Shown here: piece after piece, positions 2,626-19,297 of the stretch
Numbering within the stretch: position 1 is the stretch's first letter
How the letters are laid out: each line of letters starts with the position of its first letter
Source: Verrucomicrobiota bacterium
GTDB lineage: Bacteria > Verrucomicrobiota > Verrucomicrobiia > Limisphaerales > PALSA-1396
Direction of reading: 5' to 3'
NCBI GenBank assembly: GCA_016200005.1
Contig: JACQFP010000079.1
Coordinates: 1-59,016 of the forward strand
DNA: 59,016 nt
Translations under genes and position numbers: made by a program
The notes under the pieces: generated by a model
What the model saw: the letters and a program-made list of their open reading frames with translations, nothing else
Database searches by the model: none
What the model was told of the DNA's origin: nothing

Positions 2626-3366
2626 TTAGGTACCGTCTCTTGATCCTGGATTGCACCACATGCGCCCGGGGCGTTGGCCCGGATATCCACCGATACCGGC
2701 CTCGAGCGCGTATGCCTTAAACTTGATGAACTCGGTCTGCCCGCCGAACATGCCCATCACGATGCCGCCACTATGACGCTTGCTGACCCCTTCAGTAGGA
2801 TTGCTCGTCGCATTGTCGTAGTAGGTGTATTGCATCTCATCCGACTCCCAATAAATCATAAAGTGGGGCTTAAACAGCGACATTTTATAGCTGACCCATG
2901 GCTTGCCCGTGGGACTCGTCCCAAAGGCCGAAACCGAGCCGTTCATCGTGTAGCTGGTTACCTGCATCTCCCGCGCGCGAAAGGCAGCGTTGTTCGTGCG
3001 TTCAAGGGGACACCAATAGAGTCCTCCCTGTTTGTGGTAGGGCCACAACTGACCCCTTTCAATGACGTCTTTGGGTTTGCCAGTAGTGCGAGTATAGCAC
3101 CAGTTGGGCACCTCGGTTTGACCTGAACTCCAACCCGTGTATGGCAGCGTATCGTTGAAATCATGAACATACATGTGCGTGCACAATAGAATCTGCTTTA
3201 AGTTGTTGAGGCACTTGGCCCGGTTGCCCTTTTCCTTGGCTTTGGCCAGCGCCGGCAGCAACAGCCCCGCAAGAATGGCGATGATGGCGATTACTACCAG
3301 CAGTTCGATCAGCGTGAAGCCCTTCCGATTAATGCTGCGGCGGGTGAGGATAAACGATTTCGTCAT
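2626..3366 (-). CDS. Type II secretion/type IV pilin-like protein (pseudopilin, H-X9-DG type)
   Basis: A 246-residue secreted or membrane protein with a class III signal. A basic leader (RRSINRKG) is followed by [18 protein letters not shown], where prepilin peptidase is expected to cut after Gly and N-methylate Phe. The helix then runs into [12 protein letters not shown]. The C-terminal half carries a His/Gly-rich segment ([14 protein letters not shown]) equivalent to the H-X9-DG motif, with the final DG degenerate (GG). Proteins of this class are strongly expanded in Verrucomicrobia, Lentisphaerae and Planctomycetes, and their individual roles are mostly unknown. ATG 3366 is preceded by GGAG at good spacing. 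Three further full-length paralogues lie at 42826-48289. Confidence 0.9.
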
Positions 3367-3487
3367 ATTTAGCTCCGTAATCCTTTTCTTCTTGATTGCA
3401 CCCCAAAAATGAACCGACCGCCAAAAAAAGTCAATGGTTCATTCCGAATAACTTAACGCGCGGTCGCCGGGTGGAACTAAAAATCTT

Positions 3488-3515
3488 GTAGCGACAGGCG
3501 GGGACGCCCGCCGCT
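3488..3515. repeat. GTAGCG-type hairpin repeat, copy 1
   Basis: GTAGCG is followed by the hairpin GGCGGG-GACG-CCCGCC (stem arms at 3497-3502 and 3507-3512). Related GTAGCG-plus-hairpin sequences lie near 14098 and, inverted, at 51869-51894. This suggests a dispersed REP-like family. No terminator U-tract follows. Confidence 0.5.
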
Positions 3516-3713
3516 GCTTCCGATTTGTGAAGTTGCCCGCCACGCACCCGCGAAAGTGTGGCGATCTCAGTTCTGTTTCATCCGCGCTGGCGAATTGGTG
3601 AAGGCACGGATGTGCGATGACATAAAGTTTCGGAAATTCCCCCCGTAAGGCAGGGCATTATTCTCCGAAACTCCAAGCGTCTCCATAAATTGCTGTCGGC
3701 CTCAAATAATTTG

Positions 3714-3742
3714 TTGCACTGCCGCCAGGCCACGACTATAAA
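3714..3742 (+). promoter_or_regulatory. Candidate sigma70-type promoter of the cytochrome cluster
   Basis: TTGCAC at 3714-3719 and TATAAA at 3737-3742 are separated by exactly 17 nt, about 100 nt upstream of ATG 3843. This is a close match to the housekeeping -35/-10 consensus and is well placed to drive the cytochrome genes. It is a sequence match only. Confidence 0.5.
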
Positions 3743-3842
3743 ACCGCGAAGGAAGTGGTCGCACCCGTTTGAACCAGTTGATTCATGAAAGCGTGTCATG
3801 CGCTTTGAGTCGCTGCTGCCTGACTCAAAAAGGATTACGCCT

Positions 3843-5972
3843 ATGAAAACAACGTTGTTCGTTTCTGCCCGGCTCCTGGCGTGCAGTCTTGTTTTGATGG
3901 CCGTCGCCGGTTGCACGCCCAAAGGTTCGCTCGAAGATTCCGCCGGCGGTCGCAAGCCGGAGGATTTTGCGGAAATTGCCGCCGATGTGTTCAAGCCGAT
4001 GGACGGCGGCATCGCCCTGGCGCCGGACGAGATCAAGGGCCGCAACACCTGGAATCTCTGGTGCGGCGGCGACGAACAGTTCTGGGACCGCATGGCGCGG
4101 GAGAGTTTCGGACTGATTGATTTGCTCAAGACGATTGATTCGCGCAAGCGCGGCACCCGCTTCAAGGAACTTGGCCTGATCAACGAGCCGGGTTTCCGAC
4201 GGGCCGCCAAGCCGGACCCATACGGCCTGTGGATTGACGAAGCCGACACGCCTGAGCCGCCGGAGATCGATCCGAAAGTCTATGGTCACCCCACGGGCAT
4301 CATGGGCTTCCGGCTGTTTGAGAATCCCGATTTCAAAGGCGACGCCGTGAAGAACTGGAACGGCGAACGCTACTACACCGACGCTGACTACGCCGTCCGC
4401 CATGACCTGGTGCGACCGTATCGGGTCGGCGTTGCGTGCGGCTCGTGTCACATCGCGTTTCATCCCTGCCACCCGCCGGCGGACCCGGAAAACCCGAAGT
4501 GGGAGGACCTCGCCTCCGCCATCGGCAATCAATACATTCGTGAAGGCGCGGTCTTTGCCCACAACGTGAAACCCGGCGGGTTTTTCTGGGAGATGCTCAA
4601 GACCCAGCCGCCCGGCACCTCGGACACCTCGCGCATTGCCACCGACAACATCAATAATCCAAACGCGATCAATCCCATCTTCGTGTTGGGTGAACGCTTG
4701 TCGGTCGCCGAGGAAGAATCCCTGGCCGGCGATACGCTGAATCTTCCCACTGTGACGGCGAAGCTGAAAGTCCCACATGTGCTCAAGGACGGTGCAGATT
4801 CGGTTGGCGTGCCCGGCGCGACGCTGCGCGTTTACGTCAACATCGGCAGCTATTCCCAGCATTGGTTGCAGCAACACAACGCGCTCATCGGACTGCGCAA
4901 GCAAAAGCCCTTCAGCATCGCGACTGCGCAGAAGCATTCCGTCTATTGGCTGGCGACGCAGACAAAGTTTGGAAATGTTGCGAAGTTTTTCATGCGCCTC
5001 CAATCCTTTCGCCTGGAAGATGCGCCGGGGGGCAAGGATCTCATCAGCCAGGACGAAGCGGTGATGACGCGCGGCAAACTGGTTTTCGCCGAGAACTGCG
5101 CGAAATGTCATTCGAGCAAACGCCCGCCCGCTGGCCAGGACGCGGAGGATTGGTTTCGCAATGAAATCGTCAAGACCGATTTCCGCGACGGTAACTTCTT
5201 CTCCGACGACAAGCGTCAGCTTATCAGCAAAATCAAGAGCAACGCCGCTCGCGCCTGTGCCACCAACGCCAAGCGCGGCCACGTCTGGGACTCGTTCTCC
5301 TCTGAGACTTACAAGAATCTTCCCTCGGTCGGCGACATCGAGGTCTGGAATCCCTACACCGATCAGACGGAGAAGTTCACGGTGCCGGGCGGCGGGACGG
5401 GCTATTACCGGACACCGTCGTTGATCAGCGTCTGGTCGTCGGCACCGTTGCTGCACAACAATGCGCTCGGCAAATTTACCGGCGATCCGTCCGTCAAAGG
5501 CCGGATGGCGGCATTCAACGACGCCATTGAGAAACTGCTGTGGCCTGAGAAGCGTCTCGACAAAGCATCCATCTGGCGCACCAGCCAGGAATGCAACCTG
5601 CAGATTCAGGAGAGCGTTCTGCCCGAACCGTTGCGCACGTTGCTCAAGCCGCATACGGACGCGGACGGTTACTTTCGCCTCGGCCCCATTCCCGAGGGCA
5701 CGCCGGTCAACTTGCTCGCCAACATTGATCCGGACACGGACCCCAAAGAACTGGTAGCGCTTTGCCTGAAGATCAAAAAGGCGATGCTCAAAATCAAACT
5801 GGAGAAGCTCGATTCCGCCGCGGCCAAGGACTTGCTCAAGGCCGAGGTCGCACCGGCGCTCTTCAAAGCCAGCAAGTGCCCTGATTTGATCGAAGACCGC
5901 GGCCACTATTTCGGCACGGAGTTGCCCGACGCCGACAAACGCGCGTTGATCGAATACCTCAAGACGCTCTAG
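3843..5972 (+). CDS. Lipoprotein diheme c-type cytochrome
   Basis: A 709-residue exported cytochrome. The N-terminus MKTTLFVSARLLACSLVLMA ends in the lipobox VAGC, so it should be a periplasmic or outer-surface lipoprotein. Two heme c motifs are present, C199-GSC-H and C419-AKC-H (MetRS-style numbering from ATG 3843). The first is followed by an unusual His/Cys/Pro-rich stretch, IAFHPCHPPADP. Near the C-terminus GYYRTPSLISVWSSAPLLHNN resembles the distal region of MauG/RoxA-type diheme proteins. ATG 3843 is chosen over an upstream in-frame ATG (3798) because the signal peptide starts there and AAAGGA precedes it. It heads a cluster with a domain-sharing small protein (29 nt downstream), two more cytochromes and a patatin. 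Electron transfer or oxygenase activity is inferred, and the substrate is unknown. Confidence 0.85.
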   Translation: MKTTLFVSARLLACSLVLMAVAGCTPKGSLEDSAGGRKPEDFAEIAADVFKPMDGGIALAPDEIKGRNTWNLWCGGDEQFWDRMARESFGLIDLLKTIDSRKRGTRFKELGLINEPGFRRAAKPDPYGLWIDEADTPEPPEIDPKVYGHPTGIMGFRLFENPDFKGDAVKNWNGERYYTDADYAVRHDLVRPYRVGVACGSCHIAFHPCHPPADPENPKWEDLASAIGNQYIREGAVFAHNVKPGGFFWEMLKTQPPGTSDTSRIATDNINNPNAINPIFVLGERLSVAEEESLAGDTLNLPTVTAKLKVPHVLKDGADSVGVPGATLRVYVNIGSYSQHWLQQHNALIGLRKQKPFSIATAQKHSVYWLATQTKFGNVAKFFMRLQSFRLEDAPGGKDLISQDEAVMTRGKLVFAENCAKCHSSKRPPAGQDAEDWFRNEIVKTDFRDGNFFSDDKRQLISKIKSNAARACATNAKRGHVWDSFSSETYKNLPSVGDIEVWNPYTDQTEKFTVPGGGTGYYRTPSLISVWSSAPLLHNNALGKFTGDPSVKGRMAAFNDAIEKLLWPEKRLDKASIWRTSQECNLQIQESVLPEPLRTLLKPHTDADGYFRLGPIPEGTPVNLLANIDPDTDPKELVALCLKIKKAMLKIKLEKLDSAAAKDLLKAEVAPALFKASKCPDLIEDRGHYFGTELPDADKRALIEYLKTL

Positions 5973-6001
5973 CTCGCGGAGCGACAACCAAAAGGATCCG
6001 T

Positions 6002-6451
6002 ATGGAAATGGCTGACCTGATGAACAAGTCGCAGGCCGAGTTGGACGGCCTGTTCAAAACCAATCCTCCCGGCCCCATCCCCGAAGGTAATGCGGCCGGC
6101 ACTGCAATCGTCTGCCCGGGCACCTTTTGGTCGCGGCTGATTGCGCGCTTCGTCCATGATTTCGCCTGGCAGGGGAAGGTGTTGACCAAAAACCCCGACG
6201 GTAATGGTGCGACACTGATGAACAAGATCACCACCGCGGGCGTGCAAGCGATTGTCGCGCGCGTTTACTTCACCCAAAGCTGGCTGGACGGGAAGGAGTG
6301 CATCGTCCTCGATTACTCGAAGACGTCGCTGCTCGCGCGCAAGATTCGCGACGAGATTCGTCTAGTGGACGTGGCGAATAGAATTTACCTCGGCAAAGTC
6401 TGGTGGGGCAAAACCCGGTTGGTTGATTTCGCGCTGCAATTTCCCAAGTGA
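6002..6451 (+). CDS. Small protein with a domain also fused to a downstream cytochrome
   Basis: A 149-residue protein, probably cytoplasmic because no signal is visible. Its key segments are SQAELDGLF, TAIVCPGTFWSRLIARFVHD, ECIVLDYSKTSLLARKIRDE and YLGKVWWGKTRLVDFALQF. The same segments occur in the same order in the first ~147 residues of the next gene (6941), where they precede a transmembrane helix and a cytochrome domain. I do not recognise the domain and assign no function. ATG 6002 has AAAAGGATCC just upstream. The gene lies 29 nt after the lipoprotein cytochrome and is likely co-transcribed. Either it partners the cytochromes or it is the unfused ancestor or duplicate of the fusion domain. 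Confidence 0.8.
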   Translation: MEMADLMNKSQAELDGLFKTNPPGPIPEGNAAGTAIVCPGTFWSRLIARFVHDFAWQGKVLTKNPDGNGATLMNKITTAGVQAIVARVYFTQSWLDGKECIVLDYSKTSLLARKIRDEIRLVDVANRIYLGKVWWGKTRLVDFALQFPK

Positions 6452-6514
6452 GCATCGTCGATATTTTCAGAGGAAGGAAGCGTGCCTCACCTGTGAAGGT
6501 CTGGCGACGATTCT

Positions 6515-6551
6515 CCCTCTCCCCCGCTGCGGGGGAGAGGGCCGGGGTGAG
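6515..6551. repeat. CCCTCTCC-type hairpin repeat, copy 1
   Basis: CCCTCTCCCCC (6515-6525), five loop bases, then GGGGGAGAGGG (6531-6541) form an 11-bp stem. The flank GCCGGGGTGAG follows. Further copies of this family are at 6888-6915, 13921-13940 and 29359-29385. Confidence 0.75.
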
Positions 6552-6590
6552 AATTTCCCGAATCAAAATTCCGCGCATTGGACCCCTGAA

Positions 6591-6660
6591 CCCACCCCCA
6601 GCCCCTCCCTGGAGGGAAGCGGCGCACGGTGGATTGTTCCCCTCTTGGGAGGGGTCAGGG
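6591..6660. repeat. CCCACCCC/CCTCCC-type inverted repeat, copy 1
   Basis: A left arm reading CCCACCCCCAGCCCCTCCCT and a right arm ending GGGAGGGGTCAGGG face each other about this interval. The same inverted-repeat family occurs in cleaner form at 8878-8960 and 19143-19221. This copy has diverged, with mismatches in both arms. Confidence 0.6.
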
Positions 6661-6696
6661 AACCGCGATGCTTTCCAAGCCGTCGGATACGCGCGG

Positions 6697-6813
6697 AGCG
6701 TTTGGAGTGCGGCGACTTGTCGCCGCTGTTACACGGGGCGTGTGGAGAAGACACCCCCGCTCTGGAGTCGGCACCTTCTCAAAGCGGCGACAAGTCGCCG
6801 CACTCCAAACGCT
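6697..6813. repeat. 30-nt inverted repeat with internal palindromes
   Basis: Arms at 6697-6726 and 6784-6813 are perfect 30-nt reverse complements separated by 57 nt. Each arm ends in the self-palindrome GCGGCGACTTGTCGCCGC or its complement. The arrangement resembles a paired REP (REPIN-like) unit. No transposase is nearby. Confidence 0.7.
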
Positions 6814-6887
6814 GACGCGACCACCCACATTCCATTCGGTTCAAGGGCCGCAAGGCGCGTGCGAAGTTCGGAGAATTCTCGCCCTGA

Positions 6888-6915
6888 CCCTCTCCCCTTC
6901 GGAAAGGGGAGAGGG
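6888..6915. repeat. CCCTCTCC-type hairpin repeat, copy 2
   Basis: CCCTCTCCCCTT (6888-6899) and AAGGGGAGAGGG (6904-6915) form a 12-bp stem around a 4-nt loop, 25 nt upstream of the next start codon. It could affect transcription or translation of the fusion cytochrome, but copies elsewhere suggest it is a dispersed repeat. Confidence 0.7.
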
Positions 6916-6940
6916 AAGTTGTTATTGAGCCATAGCATCT

Positions 6941-8836
6941 ATGCCCATTGACCGCGCGCAGTTGTTGAAGATGTCGCAGGCTGAACTGGACGAGTTGTTC
7001 AGAAAGTCTGCCGCCGGCACCCTTCCCGATGGGGAGTGCACCGGCACGGTGTTGATTTGTCCGGCGACGCTCTGTGGCAAGTTCCTCGCTTGGTTTGTCC
7101 GCTGGTTCTGCTGGCAAGGCAAAGTCTTTCATCGCGCGAAAGGCTGGTTGGTCAACCGCATCTCGCCCTTCAGTGCCCATGCGATCAAAGCGAAAGTTTA
7201 CAAAGACAAGAGCTGGCTCGATCAAAACGAGTGCATCGTCCTCGACTACTCCAAGACGTCGCTCGTCGCGAAAATGATCCGCGATGAAATCCGCGAGGTT
7301 GCGCCCGGCCTTTACCTCGGCAAAGTCTGGTGGGGCAAAAAGCGGTTGATCGATTTCATCGTCAGCTTCCAATACGAACCGACGCCCTACCGCTGGCGGC
7401 GTTTTTGGGCCACGCTCGGTCTGGTGTTTGTCTTCGTGGTCATCTGCGCGATGGTGCGTTTCAACCGCGACCGACCGGTGACCTACGCAGACCCGGTGGA
7501 GCATTTCAAATACGGCTCCACCGGCGGCGAACGCACTTCGGGCATCCCGCTCTCACTCTGGAAAGCGATTCCGACCTTGTTCGATGGTTACCTCCCCGGC
7601 AAGGGGCTGCAATCACTCGGTTTCATTTTCGAGGACGGCAAGGAATTCCCCGTCGGCACGTCGCGCCGCAACGTGCAGGGAATTGACCGAATTTTCCTCA
7701 ACTGCGCCATCTACCACGTCGGCACCGTGCGCGATACACCGGAGAGCAAGCCGCGCATCATCGTTGGCATGCCGGCGAACACCATCGATCTTCAGGCCTT
7801 CCAACGCTTCCTTTCGGCGTGCGCCATCGATGAAAATTTCAACGCGGCTCGCCTCATGGATGAGATCGCAAAGGAAAAGACGGAGGATCGGCTGAACCGT
7901 CTCCTGTTGCGGCTGGTGGGCATCGACCTCATGCGCCAACGACTGCTGACCTTGCGTCAGCGTTTCAGCTTCATGGATCGCGAACCGGATTATGGGCCGG
8001 GTCGCGTGGACACGTTCAACCCGCCGAAGGTGCTGTTGAATTTTCGCATGGACAATCTCCCTACCAACGAGTGGGTCGGCATTTGCGACTTCCCGTCCGT
8101 CTGGAATCAGCGCAAGCGAAAAGGAATGCATCTGCACTGGGACGGCAACAACGACTCCGTCGAGGAACGCAACCGCAGCGCCAGTTTCGGCACTGGCGCC
8201 ACGCCGCCAACGCTCGACCGCGCTTCGATCAAGCGGATGGAAGATTGGCTGCTCGACGCCGCGCCGCCGCCATTCCCGTATGCCATCGACCGCGCTCTGG
8301 CGGCGAAGGGCGAGTCGCTCTACATGGAGTATTGTTCCCGTTGCCACGGCAGGAACGGCAGCGATTTCACCGGCGAACTCGTTGGCAAGATCACTCCAAT
8401 CGAGCAAATCAAAACCGACCGCCACCGGCTGGACTCCTATTCGGTGGACCTTTGCGCGAATCAAAACCTTCTCTACGCGGCGTATCCGGCGGAGCGTTTC
8501 AAACATTTTCGCAAGACCTTCGGCTATGCCAACCAGCCGCTGGACGGCATCTGGTTGCGCGCGCCATATCTGCACAGCGGTTCCGTGCCAACGCTGCGCG
8601 ACTTGCTCGAGCCGGCTTCGCAGCGGCCGAAAGTGTTTTACCGCGGCTACGATGTCTATGAACCCAAGCGCGTCGGGTTCGTCTGGAATGTGGTCGAGGA
8701 GAAAGGTCGGAAGTTTTTCAAAATCGACACCGGCCTCCCCGGCAATGGGAATGCGGGACACGAAGGTCGGGAATACGGCACGGGGCTTGGTCGCGCCGAG
8801 AAGGACGCGATCGTGGAATACATGAAAACATTTTAG
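6941..8836 (+). CDS. Fusion protein: unknown N-terminal domain, membrane anchor, RoxA-like cytochrome domain
   Basis: A 631-residue protein in three parts. Residues 1-147 repeat the preceding small protein (SQAELDELF, ECIVLDYSKTSLVAKMIRDE, YLGKVWWGKKRLIDF). Residues ~156-173 are a single hydrophobic segment (ATLGLVFVFVVICAMV). The rest is a cytochrome-type region with DFPSVWNQRKRKGMHLHWDG, FGTGATPP and a heme site C465-SRC-H, then APYLHSGSVPTLRDLLEP, as in RoxA/MauG-like diheme proteins. By topology the N-terminal domain should be cytoplasmic and the heme domain periplasmic. The first heme site reads C255-AI-Y258-H, with the second cysteine replaced by Tyr (TAC at 7712-7714); the sister gene at 9117 has CAICH. 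Function is unknown; an electron-transfer or oxygenase role is inferred. Confidence 0.85.
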   Translation: MPIDRAQLLKMSQAELDELFRKSAAGTLPDGECTGTVLICPATLCGKFLAWFVRWFCWQGKVFHRAKGWLVNRISPFSAHAIKAKVYKDKSWLDQNECIVLDYSKTSLVAKMIRDEIREVAPGLYLGKVWWGKKRLIDFIVSFQYEPTPYRWRRFWATLGLVFVFVVICAMVRFNRDRPVTYADPVEHFKYGSTGGERTSGIPLSLWKAIPTLFDGYLPGKGLQSLGFIFEDGKEFPVGTSRRNVQGIDRIFLNCAIYHVGTVRDTPESKPRIIVGMPANTIDLQAFQRFLSACAIDENFNAARLMDEIAKEKTEDRLNRLLLRLVGIDLMRQRLLTLRQRFSFMDREPDYGPGRVDTFNPPKVLLNFRMDNLPTNEWVGICDFPSVWNQRKRKGMHLHWDGNNDSVEERNRSASFGTGATPPTLDRASIKRMEDWLLDAAPPPFPYAIDRALAAKGESLYMEYCSRCHGRNGSDFTGELVGKITPIEQIKTDRHRLDSYSVDLCANQNLLYAAYPAERFKHFRKTFGYANQPLDGIWLRAPYLHSGSVPTLRDLLEPASQRPKVFYRGYDVYEPKRVGFVWNVVEEKGRKFFKIDTGLPGNGNAGHEGREYGTGLGRAEKDAIVEYMKTF

Positions 8837-8877
8837 GTTGAGTTATGAAATTGGAGTCGCCACTCACTATGAACCGA

Positions 8878-8960
8878 CCCACCCCTGACCCCTCCCAGGA
8901 GGGGAACTATCGTCGCGCGTCCGTCGTTCTGTTCCCCTCCTGGGAGGGGTCAGGGGTGGG
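8878..8960. repeat. CCCACCCC/CCTCCC-type inverted repeat, copy 2
   Basis: Arms at 8878-8907 and 8931-8960 are perfect 30-nt reverse complements (starting CCCACCCCTGACCCCTCCCA) with a 23-nt spacer. The element fills part of the 280-nt gap between two cytochrome genes. A further inverted pair built on GGTAGGGCGCGTCAC (near 9015) and GTGACGCGCCCTACC (near 9076) follows it. No gene was seen in this gap. Confidence 0.75.
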
Positions 8961-9116
8961 TTCATGGTGCCGATTCGTGGTCAAAGAACCACGGAGGCTT
9001 CCCATTAACCTCAAGGTAGGGCGCGTCACTCCGTGCGCGCCGCTCCCAAACCCTCCCAGGCCCGGCGCGCACAAAGTGACGCGCCCTACCTTCCTCCGTC
9101 CAGCAATCTCCAAACC

Positions 9117-10601
9117 ATGAAAACCAAAACGAAGCGCAAAATCCTTATCACGGTCATCATGCTCATGGTGCTCGGTGGTGCCGGCGCGTTGTTCGGCTGG
9201 TATAAATTCTTCAGTGAGGAGGACCAACCGCCCTTCGCCAACGAAGCCGAGCGGTTCAAATACGGCTCCATCGGCGCAGAGTTTTCGCGCGGCCTGCCGT
9301 ATTGGATCTGGGTGGTGATGCCGCGTATCTTTCCCGACTTGATGCCCGGCCCCGGAGGTTACAAATCTTTCGGTCTCGTCTGGGAAGAAGGGAAGGAAAT
9401 CCCCGTTGGCTTCAGCAAGAAAGTCGTCGGCTTTCCACGCATCGCCAACAACTGCGCCATTTGCCACGTGGGCACCTGGCGCAGCAAGGAGGACGAAGTT
9501 CCCCACGTGGTCGTCGCTTCGCCCGCGAACACGGTTGATGTGCAAGGGCTGCTCCGTTTCCTGGCGAAGGCCGGCGACGATTCCCGTTTCAACGCCAGCA
9601 ACATTCTGGAGGAGATTGACCGCGAGACCAAACTATCGTTCATCGACCGCCAGCTTTATCGCTTCGTCATCATCCCCTTCACCAAGCGGGCGCTGCAGGC
9701 CCAAAAGCAACAGTTCGCTTGGATGAACCGCCCCGGCTGGCCGGATTGGGGGCCGGGCCGTGACGACCCGATGAACCTCACGAAATATTTCATGACCTCG
9801 ATGCCCGTGGACAACTCGACGGGTCAGGCCGACTTCCCGAGCAACTGGAACCTGCAATCCCGCAAAGGCACGAATCTTTTTCTCAACTGGAGCTGCGATA
9901 CACCCGCCGTGCGTTCGGTGCTCATCGACTCTGCGCTCGGTCTCGGTGCGGCCCCGGACAAGAGCAATCCCATTGACCGGCTGAACTGGGCGCTCAAACG
10001 GCGGCGCTGGTTCATCAAACGAATGGAGGACCTCGACAATTTCCTCAGCACGCTGCCGCCACCAAAATATCCGTTCCCCATCGACGCGGCGCTCGCGGGG
10101 CAGGGCAAGCCGATTTACGACCGCCACTGCGCCGAATGTCACGACGTGGGCAAGCCGCGCACGAACAAGCCGATTCCCATCGAGGAGATCGGCACCGACC
10201 GCGAGCGCCTCGACACCTGGACCCAACCCGCCGCCGACCAGGCCAACGACGCGGTGAAGCGACTGGGCATCACTCGTCCGAACATGGTGAAGAATTTTGG
10301 TTACTGTTCACCGCCGCTCGACGGTCTCTGGATGCGCGCGCCCTATCTGCACAACGGTTCCGTGCCGACGCTGCGTGACTTGCTCGAACCGGTGGACAAG
10401 CGCCCGGCTTACTTCTACCGAGGCTACGATGTGTTCGACCCGGTCAACGTCGGTTTCATCTCGCATGCGCCGCCAGCCATCCGCGTTGGCTGGAAGCACG
10501 ACGCAAAAGAACGCGGCAACGGCAACCAGGGGCACACCTACGGCACCGGGTTGAGTGACGCGGAGAAACAATCCTTGATTGAATATCTGAAAACCCTTTA
10601 G
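9117..10601 (+). CDS. Membrane-anchored RoxA-like diheme c-type cytochrome
   Basis: A 494-residue protein with an N-terminal anchor or signal (ILITVIMLMVLGGAGALFGW) and two intact heme motifs, C113-AIC-H and C338-AEC-H. It is closely related to the cytochrome part of the 6941 gene: both have ERFKYGS, a GLVWEEGKEIPVGFS/EDGKEFPVGTS segment, an ADFPSNWN/CDFPSVWN segment, APYLHNGSVPTLRDLLEP and FYRGYDVF, and end in (D/E)YLKTL or EYMKTF. These features fit diheme oxygenase/peroxidase-like cytochromes such as RoxA or MauG, but the assignment is from memory of the family. ATG 9117 is preferred over the upstream frame start at 9033 because the hydrophobic signal begins there. The patatin gene starts 3 nt after its stop. 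Confidence 0.87.
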   Translation: MKTKTKRKILITVIMLMVLGGAGALFGWYKFFSEEDQPPFANEAERFKYGSIGAEFSRGLPYWIWVVMPRIFPDLMPGPGGYKSFGLVWEEGKEIPVGFSKKVVGFPRIANNCAICHVGTWRSKEDEVPHVVVASPANTVDVQGLLRFLAKAGDDSRFNASNILEEIDRETKLSFIDRQLYRFVIIPFTKRALQAQKQQFAWMNRPGWPDWGPGRDDPMNLTKYFMTSMPVDNSTGQADFPSNWNLQSRKGTNLFLNWSCDTPAVRSVLIDSALGLGAAPDKSNPIDRLNWALKRRRWFIKRMEDLDNFLSTLPPPKYPFPIDAALAGQGKPIYDRHCAECHDVGKPRTNKPIPIEEIGTDRERLDTWTQPAADQANDAVKRLGITRPNMVKNFGYCSPPLDGLWMRAPYLHNGSVPTLRDLLEPVDKRPAYFYRGYDVFDPVNVGFISHAPPAIRVGWKHDAKERGNGNQGHTYGTGLSDAEKQSLIEYLKTL

Positions 10602-10604
10602 GCC

Positions 10605-13600
10605 ATGCTCGAAAAAATCTTCCATACTGCCAGCTACCGGCGGAAACTTCCGGTCCCGTTCTTTGAAGTGTTGGACCAGGAACACGCCGCCCTCCACGGC
10701 GGCGCGACGACCACGTTCTCCTGGGACTTCGCGCCGGATCACCTGAAAGAATCCAGCGAGGAACTCCTTGCCAAAATCAAACTGCTGTTTCCCGCCGACG
10801 AGCAGGCCCAACTGCCCGCCTCCGCGACCAAGGAAGAGCGGGCGCGGTGGCTCAACAAATTGTTGCGAACACCGAGCTGCCTTTATCACGATCGTGATTT
10901 TCCCAAAGCCGGATTGAAAAAAGAAACGGTCGCGATGACCCGACTGGAGCTGGACCCAGCCGAACTCACGCGGCTCAACCGCCTCCTGCTGGAGGAGGCG
11001 TTTCCAGACCACATCAGAAAAATCTCGGACATTCATCTCGAAAGAATCTACCGGCAAATCCATGCCGGTGCCGGCAGCGCGGCACTCTGTTTTTCCGGCG
11101 GCGGCATCCGCAGCGCCACCTTCGCGCTCGGGGTGGCGCAGGGACTCGCGAAGCACGGAGTGTTGAAACATTTTGATTACCTTTCGACCGTTTCCGGCGG
11201 CGGCTATATCGGAAGCTGGCTCAGTTCGTGGATTCATCACGCGGGTGGAGTGGACGCGGTGTGCGACAAACTCAAAGCGGGCAAGCCTGATTCGGTCACC
11301 GATCCGGAGCCGGAACCGTTGAGCCATCTGCGCAAATACAGCAATTACCTCAGCCCGAAACTCGGCTTGTTCTCCGCCGACACCTGGGTGCTGGCCGCGA
11401 CGTATTTGCGCAACCTGCTGTTGAACTGGGTGGTATTTGCGCCGATTCTGCTGGCGCTCTTCGCCTTGCCGCGCGTTCACGCGTCACTGCTGAACCTGAC
11501 CCCGCCGGACTGGCTGATCGCGGCGGGATTTTTCTCCGGGTTTCTGCTGGCCGCGTGGGGCATGGCCTACAGTGCGATGAACCGCCCGGCGGCACGGGAC
11601 GATTTACAGCGACACAGCCGCGGCTGGTTCCTGCGGCGCGACCAACAGAGCTTCCTCCTCTGGTGTTTGGCGCCGATGTGTGCGGCGGCGATTTGCATCA
11701 CCACCTCGTGGTCGTGGGTGCAGAACGGCCTCGACACGGACACAAGCAACGCGGCCCTGAAATGGTTCCTGGGAATCGTCGGTGGAACGCCGGAAGTGAA
11801 GCCGGAAATTATGAACTATTGCCTGCTGGGCGCGGTCCTGCACTTTGCCGGCTGGCTTCTGGCGGAATGTTTTTTGCAGCGCTGGCGCGCCGGCAAGTGG
11901 GCCGATCTGCGCAAGGAATTTTTTCTCACGCTGGTCATCGGCGCGGTGGGCGGCGTTTTTTTGTGGAGTGCCGCATCCCTGAGTGTGCGGAATGCCAATT
12001 CTGCGCTGGGTTCGATGTTGTTCAGTTGTTTTGCCGCGCCGGTGTTTCTGATGTTGTTCCTCGTCGCGGCAACCCTCTTCATCGGCGTCGTGAGCGACGT
12101 GACTTCCGACGAGGACCGCGAATGGTGGGCGCGGATGGGCGCGTGGCTGCTCATCGCCATCGTCGGCTGGAGCCTGTTTGGTGCCCTGGTTTTATTTGCG
12201 CCCCTGGGATTGCTCGCGCTGCCGAAACTCCTTGGCGCGCTCGGCGGCATCAGCGGACTGTTCACCCTGATCGTCGGCCACAACGGCAGCACAGCGGCGA
12301 ACAAGGAACGGAAAACCAAGGAAAGCCCGTTTGCCTTTTCTCTCGATAAGGCGCTGACCCTGGCCGCGCCGATCTCGCTCGCGGCGCTGGTGGCCGGCCT
12401 TTCACTCGCCACCAGTAGGCTGTTGGTCACGGCCGCGAAACCATTGAGCCCCTTGGTCTCCGACCTCAAAACCTACTCGGGGCTTCACGCGGGGAAGGAT
12501 TTCTGTCAGGTCGTCAGCAGCGCACCGTGGTGGTTGACCGCCGGATTCCTCCTCGTCGGCGCTTTCGTGGGATGGTTACTTTCGCGATTCATCAACGTGA
12601 ACAAATTCTCGCTCCACGCCATTTATCGCAATCGGCTCGTGCGCGCCTATCTCGGCGCTTCCAATCCCAGACGCGACCCCAATCCCTTCACCGGCTTCGA
12701 CCCCTGCGACAATCTGCCGCTGCAGGAACTGCGCGATCCGGGCAACTCCGCGCGGCCGCAGCGGCCCTTGCACATCGTCAACATGGCGCTCAACCTCGTC
12801 ACCGGCGAAAACCTCGCGTGGCAGGAGCGCAAGGCCGAGACCTTCACTGCCAGCACCCTGCACTGCGGGAATTTCCGGCTCGGCTACCGCTTCACCAAAC
12901 ATTACGCTTTGAGTCTGAGAAAAATCGGCCAGCCTAAAAACGGCCTTTCGCTTGGCACCGCGATGGCAGTTTCGGGCGCAGCGGCCAGCCCGAATCAAGG
13001 TTATCATTCCTCGCCGGTCGTCGCCCTGCTCATGACGCTGTTCAACGTCCGGCTCGGCTGGTGGCTCGGCAATCCCGGCGCGATGGGGCATGACACCTTT
13101 CACGACTCCGCGCCGCGTTCGCCCGTGCGCCACATGGTCAAGGAGGGACTGGGCCTCACCGACAGCACCAGCCCTTACGTTTATCTTTCTGACGGCGGGC
13201 ACTTCGAAAATCTTGGCTTCTACGAAATGATCCTGCGCCGCTGCCGGCTCATCGTGGTCAGCGACGCCGGCTGCGACCCCAAATGCAACCTCGAAGACCT
13301 CGGCAACGCCATCCGCAAAGTGCGGGTGGACCTCGGCGTAAGAATTGAAATCAAGAAGTTCGACATCTTCTCGCGTATTGGAGACGAAGGGAAACGGCTC
13401 GGGAAATACTGCGCGGTGGCGGAGATTGATTACGGCAGCATCGATGAAGGCGCGAGGAAAGGGATACTGATTTACTTGAAGCCCGCCTTGTGCGGTGACG
13501 AGCCGCGGGACATCTACAATTATTCGCGCGCCAGCCAGGAATTCCCGCACGAGACCACCGGCGACCAGTGGTTCAGTGAATCGCAGTTCGAGAGCTATCG

Positions 13601-13796
13601 CGCATTGGGCCAATTCGTCATTGACCGGATTTACCAGGACCCATTACGTGCGCAACCCCTGGACGGCCAACCGGCAGATGAACTCAGTACGTTTGTCGCC
13701 CGGGCCTGCCAGTATGCCGAATGTCCTCCGCTTGACGGCTGGAAGGAAAAAGTCGAGGTCTCCTCCGTCAACTCGCCGATTGCAAAAACTGAATAG
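10605..13796 (+). CDS. Large membrane-associated patatin-like phospholipase
   Basis: A 1063-residue patatin-family lipid acyl hydrolase. The oxyanion-hole loop is CFSGGGIRSATFALGVAQGL (GGG at 165-167). The nucleophile is S197 in YLSTVSGGGYIG, and the dyad Asp is D863 in YLSDGGHFENLGF. Between these lie roughly eight or more hydrophobic segments (e.g. LLLNWVVFAPILLALFALP), so the catalytic site is split around a membrane domain. Patatins with this layout cleave acyl esters of membrane lipids; the substrate here is unknown. ATG 10605 follows the cytochrome stop by 3 nt, implying translational coupling and a shared function with the cytochromes. The small soluble patatins are about 300 residues, so this is an unusually large member. 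Confidence 0.88.
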   Translation: MLEKIFHTASYRRKLPVPFFEVLDQEHAALHGGATTTFSWDFAPDHLKESSEELLAKIKLLFPADEQAQLPASATKEERARWLNKLLRTPSCLYHDRDFPKAGLKKETVAMTRLELDPAELTRLNRLLLEEAFPDHIRKISDIHLERIYRQIHAGAGSAALCFSGGGIRSATFALGVAQGLAKHGVLKHFDYLSTVSGGGYIGSWLSSWIHHAGGVDAVCDKLKAGKPDSVTDPEPEPLSHLRKYSNYLSPKLGLFSADTWVLAATYLRNLLLNWVVFAPILLALFALPRVHASLLNLTPPDWLIAAGFFSGFLLAAWGMAYSAMNRPAARDDLQRHSRGWFLRRDQQSFLLWCLAPMCAAAICITTSWSWVQNGLDTDTSNAALKWFLGIVGGTPEVKPEIMNYCLLGAVLHFAGWLLAECFLQRWRAGKWADLRKEFFLTLVIGAVGGVFLWSAASLSVRNANSALGSMLFSCFAAPVFLMLFLVAATLFIGVVSDVTSDEDREWWARMGAWLLIAIVGWSLFGALVLFAPLGLLALPKLLGALGGISGLFTLIVGHNGSTAANKERKTKESPFAFSLDKALTLAAPISLAALVAGLSLATSRLLVTAAKPLSPLVSDLKTYSGLHAGKDFCQVVSSAPWWLTAGFLLVGAFVGWLLSRFINVNKFSLHAIYRNRLVRAYLGASNPRRDPNPFTGFDPCDNLPLQELRDPGNSARPQRPLHIVNMALNLVTGENLAWQERKAETFTASTLHCGNFRLGYRFTKHYALSLRKIGQPKNGLSLGTAMAVSGAAASPNQGYHSSPVVALLMTLFNVRLGWWLGNPGAMGHDTFHDSAPRSPVRHMVKEGLGLTDSTSPYVYLSDGGHFENLGFYEMILRRCRLIVVSDAGCDPKCNLEDLGNAIRKVRVDLGVRIEIKKFDIFSRIGDEGKRLGKYCAVAEIDYGSIDEGARKGILIYLKPALCGDEPRDIYNYSRASQEFPHETTGDQWFSESQFESYRALGQFVIDRIYQDPLRAQPLDGQPADELSTFVARACQYAECPPLDGWKEKVEVSSVNSPIAKTE

Positions 13797-13920
13797 TGCG
13801 ACGTCATCGACGCTGGCGTTTGCGGGGCGCGAAGACGCAAAGAAGTTCTGCTGTTTTCCCTGCGCCTTGGCGTCTTGGCGTCTTTGCGTTGAAAATGCTT
13901 TACGTCCTCCCTCACCCCGA

Positions 13921-13940
13921 CCCTCTCCCCAAGGAGAGGG
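13921..13940. repeat. CCCTCTCC-type hairpin repeat, copy 3
   Basis: CCCTCTCC and GGAGAGGG form an 8-bp stem with a 4-nt loop, preceded by CTCACCCCGA as in the copy at 29359. Confidence 0.65.
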
Positions 13941-14097
13941 CGAATCGTTCGCCACTCCTTTGGAAGATCGGGCGTTGGAGTTGGCAGGAGAGTCACCGAG
14001 CAATCAGAGGTTGGGCGATGGCAGCTCCCGCTCCTTGGGGAGGGAATTGCCCGAAAGGACATTTCGCACATTAAACCCCTGAACCAGACGGGCGACG

Positions 14098-14184
14098 ACG
14101 TAGCGCGGGCGTCTTCGCCTGCGAGTTGGCCAGGCGTCCCGCCGGGCGTTCGCGCTGGCAGCGGGACGCTGCCGCAACTCGCAG
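14098..14184. repeat. GTAGCG-type element with nested stems, copy 2
   Basis: GTAGCG and a GGGCGTCTTCGCCTG hairpin are followed by nested complementary arms. CTGCGAGTTG (14119-14128) pairs with CAACTCGCAG (14175-14184), and inside it GCGTCCCGC (14134-14142) pairs with GCGGGACGC (14161-14169). The structure is a long cruciform-type repeat rather than a simple terminator. Confidence 0.6.
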
Positions 14185-14293
14185 CCGGGACGGACTGCGC
14201 AACAGCGTTCATGGGAAGGGGCCGGGGTGAGGGAGAACGAGAGGTAAAAAGCTCAGATGGTTTTTTAACTCGTGCGGTGAGGGCGAACGTCGG

Positions 14294-15313
14294 CTAATCG
14301 CGTGTGGTTTGTTTGCCGAGATTGATGATTTTGTCGATGAGCTTGGGGTAGGGGATGTCGGCCTTTTTGGCGGACTCGGCAAAGTCTTCTTCGCGGGCGA
14401 GGATGGGATTGGGGTTGGCTTCGATGAACACGACTTCGTTTTGCGGGGTCAATCGCAGGTCGAGCCGCGCGTAACCGTCGATGGCGAGCAGCCGGTAGAT
14501 TTTCTTGCAGATCGATTCGATGCGTTGAACGAGGTCCGCATCGAGTTCCTTCGCAAATTCATTTCGGATCCCCCAACGCTTGCGATACTCCTCGTCCCAC
14601 TTGGCTTTGTAGGTGGCGAACTTGGGTTCGTCGGGCGGCACTTCCTTGAAGGTCAACTCGCGAATGGGCAACACCTGAAGGCGATGGTTGCCGAGAATGC
14701 CGACGTAAAGCTCCCGGCCCTCGATGTATTCCTCGGCGATCACGTCCTGATCAAATTTTTCGTGAATGAATGCGACGCGTTGTTTGAATTGCTCGTCATT
14801 TTCCACGAACGAAGCCTGGGCGATTCCGTAAGACGCTTCTTCCTTCAAAGGTTTTATGAAAATGGGAAAGGCAAGCCGGCTGGGGCGGGCGATGCGTTTG
14901 CCGCGCGGAATGATTGTGAAATCCGGAACGTGGATACGGTGATAACCGAGAATCTTTTTCGAGATGCCCTTGTTTTTGCACAGTGTCAGCCCGGTCGAGC
15001 CGCAGCCGGTGAACGGCACGTCCTGCAGTTCAAGAAACGAAACGATGTTCTGGTCGAACGCGCGATTGTTTTTGAACTGGTCGGCCAGATTGAAGATGAT
15101 GTCGGGCTGAAAGCTTTCAATCTTCTGGCTGATCAAATCGGTGTCGTCGAAGATCGCCAGGTGCTCGTTCGGGTAGCCCAGCGTCGCCAGCGCTTCGAGG
15201 ACGTTGGCTTCGGTTTCCCAATCTTTGGTCTTGAGTTCCTTGCTGAGATTCTGGTCCAGGGTGGTTGGCCCCATGGCGTCGAACAGCGCGAGGACTTTTT
15301 GTTTCTTCTTCAC
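14294..15313 (-). CDS. ATP-grasp ligase, D-Ala-D-Ala ligase-like
   Basis: A 339-residue ATP-grasp enzyme resembling D-alanine-D-alanine ligases. An N-terminal Rossmann-like part (PDIIFNLADQF) is followed by VPFTGCGSTGLTLCKNKG, the ATP-binding PIFIKPLKEEASYGI, EEYIEGRELYVGILG, and the metal-binding DGYARLDLRL and VVFIEANPNP. These enzymes join a carboxylate to an amine through an acyl phosphate. True Ddl function is doubtful because the loop residues differ from classic Ddl and the gene is not in a cell-wall cluster. The start is GTG at 15313, 8 nt after the stop of the zincin gene, so the two are coupled. A role in ligating a peptide or amino acid handled by the neighbouring peptidase is inferred. 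Confidence 0.85.
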   Translation of the reverse strand: MKKKQKVLALFDAMGPTTLDQNLSKELKTKDWETEANVLEALATLGYPNEHLAIFDDTDLISQKIESFQPDIIFNLADQFKNNRAFDQNIVSFLELQDVPFTGCGSTGLTLCKNKGISKKILGYHRIHVPDFTIIPRGKRIARPSRLAFPIFIKPLKEEASYGIAQASFVENDEQFKQRVAFIHEKFDQDVIAEEYIEGRELYVGILGNHRLQVLPIRELTFKEVPPDEPKFATYKAKWDEEYRKRWGIRNEFAKELDADLVQRIESICKKIYRLLAIDGYARLDLRLTPQNEVVFIEANPNPILAREEDFAESAKKADIPYPKLIDKIINLGKQTTRD

Positions 15314-19067: not shown

Positions 19068-19142
19068 CGGAGTGCCGGGTTCATGGCCAGGATGCGCGGC
19101 AAGATGGACGTGGAGGCTGCCCATGAACCTGCCACCCGCTCA

Positions 19143-19221
19143 CCCACCCCTGACCCCTTCCCAGGAGGGGAACAAAGCGAGCGTGTGCTGCTCCCCTCCT
19201 GGGAAGGAGGTCAGGGGTGGG
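19143..19221. repeat. CCCACCCC/CCTCCC-type inverted repeat, copy 3
   Basis: Arms 19143-19170 and 19193-19221 are complementary apart from one indel and share the CCCACCCCTGACC...CCAGGAGGGG sequence with the copies at 6591 and 8878. Confidence 0.7.
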
Positions 19222-19297
19222 TTCAGGGGTTCGATTCGCGCACTGCGATCCGTGGAATCTCGCTCGTCAAGGACGAAAAAAGCAGTAGTGTTGGAGC

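Follow-up and report, generated by a model that had tools for sequence, protein, structure and literature searches.

The stretch of 59,016 nucleotides (nt) from contig JACQFP010000079.1 of a Verrucomicrobiota bacterium (assembly GCA_016200005.1), referred to below as the window, carries at positions 3843-13796 of its plus strand a run of five co-directional genes, here named A, S, B, C and D: three genes for c-type cytochromes (A, B and C), one for a small protein (S) and one for a patatin (D). An earlier note on the same DNA had described these five genes as one cluster that could oxidise a lipid or a polymer at the cell surface. The layout is confirmed, and its recurrence in other phyla speaks against a chance arrangement. 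On balance, and by analogy with the Pseudomonas aeruginosa pair PA2077/PA2078, we lean towards a membrane-associated lipid-oxygenation system of that kind rather than a rubber-cleaving one, the cluster type probably being a widespread and little-studied machine that makes or destroys oxidised lipids. The features under discussion are the following.

3843-5972, + strand: gene A, open reading frame (ORF) for a di-heme cytochrome of 709 residues, with a lipoprotein-like start (lipobox-like, by eye) and the motifs CGSCH and CAKCH
6002-6451, + strand: gene S, 149 residues, predicted eight-strand barrel, no hydrophobic segment
6697-6813, no strand: inverted repeat in the S-B gap, two 43-nt arms (88%)
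6941-8836, + strand: gene B, whole ORF of 631 residues, motifs CAIYH and CSRCH
6941-7375, + strand: S', the N-terminal part of B, a duplicate S domain 52% identical to S
7376-8836, + strand: remainder of B, comprising a membrane anchor and a RoxA-like di-heme cytochrome part with CAIYH as its first heme motif
8877-9092, no strand: two inverted repeats in the B-C gap, at 8877-8961 (100%) and 9013-9092 (93%)
9117-10601, + strand: gene C, membrane-anchored di-heme cytochrome of 494 residues with a predicted RoxA fold, motifs CAICH and CAECH
10605-13796, + strand: gene D, patatin of 1063 residues with a multi-helix membrane part between Ser197 and Asp863

The predicted model of C (mean pLDDT 93.4, pTM 0.91) aligns with the rubber oxygenase RoxA (4b2n) over 379 residues (Z 20.2, root-mean-square deviation 3.4), the next structural matches being hydrazine synthase (Z 12.1) and MauG (Z 11.6), with bacterial cytochrome c peroxidases (Ccps) also among its kin. 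RoxA 4b2n is likewise the top match when PDB sequences are searched with C (2.8e-16), while A has no match there. The structure prediction proposed as a check in the earlier note thus points to a RoxA fold with two c hemes, and because of this fold C is unlikely to be a plain electron carrier. At the family level, where that note had announced two RoxA/MauG-like cytochromes, B and C score 57.5 and 62.6 bits against Pfam RoxA-like_Cyt-c (cut-off 26.7) and 170.1 and 167.7 bits against NCBIfam NF040606 (di-heme-cytochrome C peroxidase; cut-off 150); A (14.7 and 38.8 bits, respectively) belongs to neither and stays under every Pfam and NCBIfam family cut-off. None of the five proteins has a match in PHROGs. 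The profile search that the note had suggested gives a mixed answer, since B and C fall in the RoxA-like family but miss the curated NCBIfam models for RoxA, RoxB and RoxC (C: 82.3, 86.9 and 95.6 bits; B: 57.7, 53.6 and 68.4 bits; cut-offs 1000, 900 and 900 bits) and for MauG (TIGR03791, cut-off 443.85; C 11.6 bits, A and B not listed).

The heme sites are well conserved in the homologues that we aligned, the heme cysteines and histidines being kept in all 44 C proteins and all 23 A proteins. In C, the MauG-type histidine is present in 44/44 sequences and the axial histidine of the second heme in 42/44 (two gaps). As had been noted, intact and degenerate heme motifs coexist in the window: those of A and C are intact, and the first motif of B reads CAIYH. 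When the profile of the 44 C proteins was aligned with RoxA to locate its pocket residues W302 and F317, the latter close to the heme that binds oxygen, the W302 place turned out to be occupied by tryptophan in 30/30 B proteins and in 26/44 C proteins, and the F317 place in B by phenylalanine (19/30, among them F270 of the window), leucine (8), isoleucine (2) or methionine (1). B is therefore the more RoxA-like of the two at these two places, whereas C is closer to RoxA overall (82.3 vs. 57.7 bits).

The genomic context was studied by scanning the B/C alignment against 84,980 species genomes and keeping the best 80 of 530 confirmed relatives as loci, in which the A, B and C types were labelled by the best tblastn query. 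Pfam searches of representative loci revealed lipoxygenase, animal haem peroxidase, FMN oxidoreductase (OYE), GMC oxidoreductase, alpha/beta hydrolase, patatins and a Tle1-like lipase. With models made from the neighbour clusters, at least one lipid gene is found in 48/80 loci (37/69 without eleven Pseudomonas loci) vs. 2/40 controls (20-kb regions chosen by hand in 30 of the genomes that carry the loci), a comparison that favours the loci, as the models were built from them. A fairer count was based on Pfam matches in 50 of the 80 genomes: 10 of 188 patatin matches lie inside loci (0.66 expected), as do 4 of 11 lipoxygenase rows (0.04 expected) and 7 of about 30 animal peroxidase genes (rows merged by hand; 0.10 expected). 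After collapsing near relatives, patatin (8) and peroxidase (4) remain far above expectation. Two kinds of clusters can be distinguished, S being present in 35 loci and OYE, GMC, peroxidase or lipoxygenase genes in 41, with both in 3 and neither in 7; patatins occur in five loci of the S kind and six of the other, one of which (L074) is a weak case about 9 kb away.

In the window, the stop codon of C (TAG) ends at 10601 and D starts at 10605, so that the 3-nt spacing reported earlier is exact. D is indeed a membrane patatin: it passes Pfam Patatin PF01734 (37.9 bits, cut-off 27.7), and its GGG motif, the nucleophile Ser197 (11193-11195) and Asp863 (13191-13193) are invariant in 8/8 aligned sequences, several hydrophobic segments lying between the two catalytic residues. 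Elsewhere, a patatin is the first gene after C in L059, L096, L097 and L101 (Pfam) and in L099 and L102 (local model of the L097 type), which makes three unlike types in all, and a Tle1-like lipase holds the same place in L094. The first gene after C looks hydrolase-like by eye in L090, L093, L113 and L114 (a sub-threshold DDHD match in L090, no match in L113), while a patatin follows about 270 nt after C in L065 and one ORF later in L104; in other loci, C is followed by an ORF of another kind or by none that could be found. A relative from the same order (G007) has an A-type cytochrome followed, after about 27 nt, by a single frame with GMC and patatin domains. Two Rhizobium plasmids, p2 of R. 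leguminosarum GLR17 and pRL11 of R. johnstonii 3841 (RL_RS32270 to RL_RS32240), carry an uninterrupted run of OYE, B, a small protein, C, A, GMC and patatin, in which neighbouring genes overlap or are separated by no more than 35 nt; a Sinorhizobium fredii plasmid has the same type of run, with a hypothetical protein instead of the patatin.

Among the 80 loci, C-type genes are found in 76, B-type in 67, both in 63, A-type in 50 and all three in 49, and B and C lie on the same strand with frames less than 1 kb apart in 59 of the 63 loci that hold both. In a tree built from 153 sequences by a quick method with SH-aLRT support, C forms a clade of 65 rows (support 98) and B another of 65 rows (support 82; 62 rows at 96), one of which had been labelled C. 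Read by eye from the tree drawing, both clades hold Verrucomicrobiota, Acidobacteriota, Nitrospirota, Cyanobacteriota, Myxococcota and Pseudomonadota, Kiritimatiellota appearing in the B clade only. Since the sister clades hold the same groups, B and C seem to go back to an old duplication and to have been retained as a pair. The closest relatives in the tree are L057 for B of the window (74%) and L058 for C (62%), L056, which was left out of the tree, being 68% identical to C. The order A-S-B-C is kept together in L057 and L058, both Verrucomicrobia contigs, so that the gene order sought in other Verrucomicrobia does exist, though without the patatin. C-like matches are also present on 65/72,556 plasmids. 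The genome itself encodes a more distant, lipoprotein-like di-heme paralogue (G000, contig C54, L049, 8501-10336), with no lipid genes alongside by eye. A further family of c-type cytochromes occurs in 31/80 loci (e.g., L063, L064, L077), its gene lying between those of S and B whenever the locus has an S; its full examples have about 650-790 residues, CxxCH is found in 25/25 clustered ORFs, the two members tested have no Pfam match, and it is absent from the 40 controls and was not seen in the cluster of the window.

S was correctly described as a small protein of unknown domain, for it passes no Pfam or NCBIfam cut-off (one Pfam row at E 0.3), but its second copy had been missed: residues 1-145 of B are 52% identical to S, and B is thus a fusion. 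At the DNA level, the copies share 116 nt at 72% identity and 47 nt at 91%, so that the duplication may be fairly recent; in the 80 loci, no S match lies in the same frame as B or C. The S model (pLDDT 85, eight strands) has a single structural match well above background, Tcur_1030 (4mve; Z 12.7, 130 residues aligned, 18% identity), lipocalins (Z 6-7) falling within the usual background and Foldseek returning nothing at E 0.001. An S profile run against PDB sequences gave one match (E 0.097), which we judged to be due to chance. DUF4334 (PF14232) stays a candidate family for S, its model having matched none of 58 genomes and no control either. By eye, betaproteobacterial S proteins have a lipoprotein-like start and a longer C-terminus. 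Regarding topology, the export of all three cytochromes had been claimed; N-terminal hydrophobic segments point to it for A and C (the latter with only one), but the single segment of B lies at residues 152-177, after the S copy. If the basic stretch of B stays inside, S' would lie in the cytosol and the heme part of B outside.

The best parallel comes from PA2077 (oleate 10S-dioxygenase) and PA2078 (7,10-diol synthase), the FadCcp proteins of P. aeruginosa, which in the parts of the literature consulted act in the periplasm and convert oleate to a 10-hydroperoxide and a 7,10-diol (PMC4496055, PMC5155153), products that reportedly serve as signals between cells (PMC6377657). Judging from the published description (PMC4496055, PMC5155153), B and C would share with them the tandem arrangement of paralogous di-heme RoxA-like genes, the PY-x-HNGSVP motif and a location outside the inner membrane; two CxxCH motifs per protein hold for C but not for B of the window (CAIYH). 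One FadCcp member keeps the inter-heme tryptophan and the other has lost it, and B (30/30) and C (26/44) tend the same way; the heme-His spacing is 245 and 235 in FadCcp, 225 in C and 210 in B. Unlike the window cluster, which is membrane-anchored and includes A, S and lipases, FadCcp proteins have cleaved signal peptides, and no lipase is named in the portions of text available to us (PMC4496055, PMC5155153).

A search for direct counterparts in Pseudomonas with the DNA pattern of PYFHNGSVP found it in 0/398 genomes of the family, P. aeruginosa presumably being outside the genomes drawn. NF040606 has matches in 144 of 199 Pseudomonas genomes; six loci from these had other heme motifs, and the best members, near 600 bits, lie, as far as sampled, on another, long-separated branch. 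Several Pseudomonas loci among our relatives have their own architecture: in L118 (5945-9400), a GMC oxidoreductase-alpha/beta hydrolase fusion (Pfam, L118 only) precedes a single C-type cytochrome and a metallophosphoesterase follows, similar ORFs occurring in eight other Pseudomonas loci, L087 (shorter ORF) and L106; the single C-type cytochrome of L137 has an extra membrane part (by eye).

In the scheme that we infer, which extends to the substrate and its product, the sequence of reactions, the ligand bound by S and the sides of the membrane, D, as a patatin-type acyl hydrolase, would free or remodel acyl chains at the membrane, and the barrels of S and S' would hold or hand over the lipid. 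The B-C pair would then oxidise unsaturated acyl chains with O2 to a hydroperoxide- or diol-type product, as PA2077/PA2078 do, while A, a lipid-anchored third di-heme partner, might serve as an electron relay or convert the product further. Where related operons include OYE and GMC oxidoreductases, these would process the oxygenated lipid.

At face value, the same genes could serve the opposite purpose, namely the disposal of lipid hydroperoxides, in which di-heme peroxidases reduce peroxidised acyl chains and the patatin excises damaged ones as a repair. This is the chief rival of lipid oxygenation, although we consider it unlikely. Both B and C are members of the peroxidase family NF040606, MauG and the Ccps share with C the di-heme core and the histidine of PYLHNGS, and patatins are known membrane-lipid hydrolases; in Pseudomonas L138 (G443), a 600-bit member of the other NF040606 branch adjoins a catalase-like ORF (by eye), possibly a lipid-peroxide pair. 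However, the match of C to RoxA is far stronger than those to MauG and the Ccps (Z 20.2 vs. 11.6 and less), and lipoxygenases and animal-type peroxidases, which oxygenate lipids or make lipid peroxides, are among the neighbours.

The polymer half of the earlier proposal corresponds to RoxA-like cleavage as a means of catabolising a hydrophobic compound taken from outside, be it an isoprenoid polymer, squalene, a sterol or a hopanoid, which we regard as improbable. C shares with RoxA and RoxB the fold, the two c-heme motifs and conserved ligands, and B the tryptophan at the W302 place; OYE neighbours would also fit, and so would a Pseudomonas GMC neighbour resembling cholesterol oxidase, albeit at 149 bits for a cut-off of 850. 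Yet the best score of 95.6 bits is far below the 900-1000 bits of the curated Rox models, there is no rubber context, patatin and lipoxygenase act on acyl chains, and the seven-gene Rhizobium run includes no transporter. Polyisoprene is not favoured because of these missed cut-offs and because the neighbours are of the fatty-acid type or general oxidoreductases; the lipid half of the proposal fares better, as the link between cytochromes and acyl hydrolases recurs in unrelated genomes. Ordinary electron-transfer cytochromes lying by chance near a patatin, a view compatible with c-type hemes and with the broken motif in B of the window, are highly improbable considering the RoxA fold over 379 residues, the recurrence of lipid genes above expectation and the three patatin types and the Tle1-like lipase at the same place; the plain electron carrier was rejected on fold and gene context.

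Beyond the bias of the neighbour models mentioned above, several observations weigh against a lipid-oxygenation system. None of the tested lipid-gene families is found in 32/80 loci (some with short flanks), lipoxygenase, which represents one Nostoc-like group, reaches only P 0.04 once near relatives are collapsed, and a patatin is missing from the closest Verrucomicrobia loci, L057 and L058, with C of L057 followed by a gene that has only a sub-threshold alpha/beta hydrolase match. Within the order set, C matched 10/58 genomes including its own, the others being pieces or distant relatives (a same-genus genome, 82% complete, has only a 27-residue piece), and S was found in 1/58 order genomes and 1/387 phylum genomes, its own both times. 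The RoxA F317 place of C is Leu, Ile, Val or Met in 44/44 sequences, and no function is stated in the title of 4mve, the only structure that S matches strongly. D-type patatins also occur without cytochromes: among four loci examined from 12 listed of 43 matching plasmid records, those of Azospirillum and Hymenobacter have no cytochrome listed in their vicinity, that of Methylobacterium includes a di-heme peroxidase and that of Phyllobacterium a peroxidase family protein, and the D type was rejected as an obligate partner of the cytochromes. The Methylobacterium oryzae plasmid (L218, 1875-9634) shows the D-type patatin divergent from the di-heme peroxidase (570 bits, NF040606), with a cytochrome P450 nearby. 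Finally, the second cysteine of the first heme motif is present in 29/30 aligned B proteins, the window being the sole exception, and this defect counts against an intact B-C pair in this genome; inverted repeats in the S-B (489 nt) and B-C (280 nt) gaps mean that a single transcript across them is not assured.

The other 29 B proteins keep both CxxCH motifs and B of the window only one, so that it may be altered or failing for want of one cysteine; its tyrosine codon TAC (7712-7714) is one base away from the cysteine codon TGC of C, and the difference may also stem from an error in sequencing or assembly. The loss of a heme ligand need not kill such a protein, given that heme-His mutants of PA2078 stayed active and those of PA2077 were dead, according to the part of the study consulted (PMC4496055). 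The gaps corresponding to those of the window are only about 10-25 nt long in L057 and L058, which, together with the broken motif and the repeats, suggests that the window's own copy of the cluster may be decaying. The palindromic elements look like dispersed repeats inserted between genes: others lie in intergenic gaps at 13903-14239, and the end sequence of the 8877-8961 element is found again as an inverted pair at 19141-19223. As for the good promoter claimed before the first gene, it could not be upheld, since a sigma-70 scan of 3300-14300 returned two sites (2.5 expected), both on the minus strand and none before A, where only a weak TTGCAC-17-TATAAA (3714-3742) is visible by eye.

The earlier note had called the system undescribed. 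This is fair for the cluster itself as far as the literature found shows, open-licence PMC articles (titles, beginnings of abstracts and part of the matches) yielding no report in which bacterial di-heme pairs of this sort are linked to patatin, lipoxygenase, OYE or GMC, but the kind of enzyme is already known from its nearest experimentally studied relatives, namely RoxA (PMC5979037) and, in the texts consulted, PA2077/PA2078. More tentatively, and with less confidence than we place in a lipid-oxygenation system as such, the loci may constitute an unnamed, horizontally spreading family of oxylipin operons, found in six or more phyla as well as on plasmids of rhizobia, in which a paired RoxA-like B-C dioxygenase core and its lipid-anchored partner A would be combined interchangeably with a lipase (several patatin types, Tle1-like and other folds), with S as a lipid carrier, or with enzymes that oxygenate the lipid or process it (lipoxygenase, COX-like peroxidase, OYE, GMC); if so, it would be a bacterial parallel of the release-oxygenate-process routes to oxylipins in plants and animals. 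In the literature found, which was seen in part, the oxygenation of fatty acids by di-heme cytochromes is documented for one bacterial pair, PA2077/PA2078. If B and C carry out a similar chemistry, bacteria that live freely or in association with plants would commonly have an oxylipin-type metabolism, and the lipase as the source of the lipid would be encoded in the same cluster.

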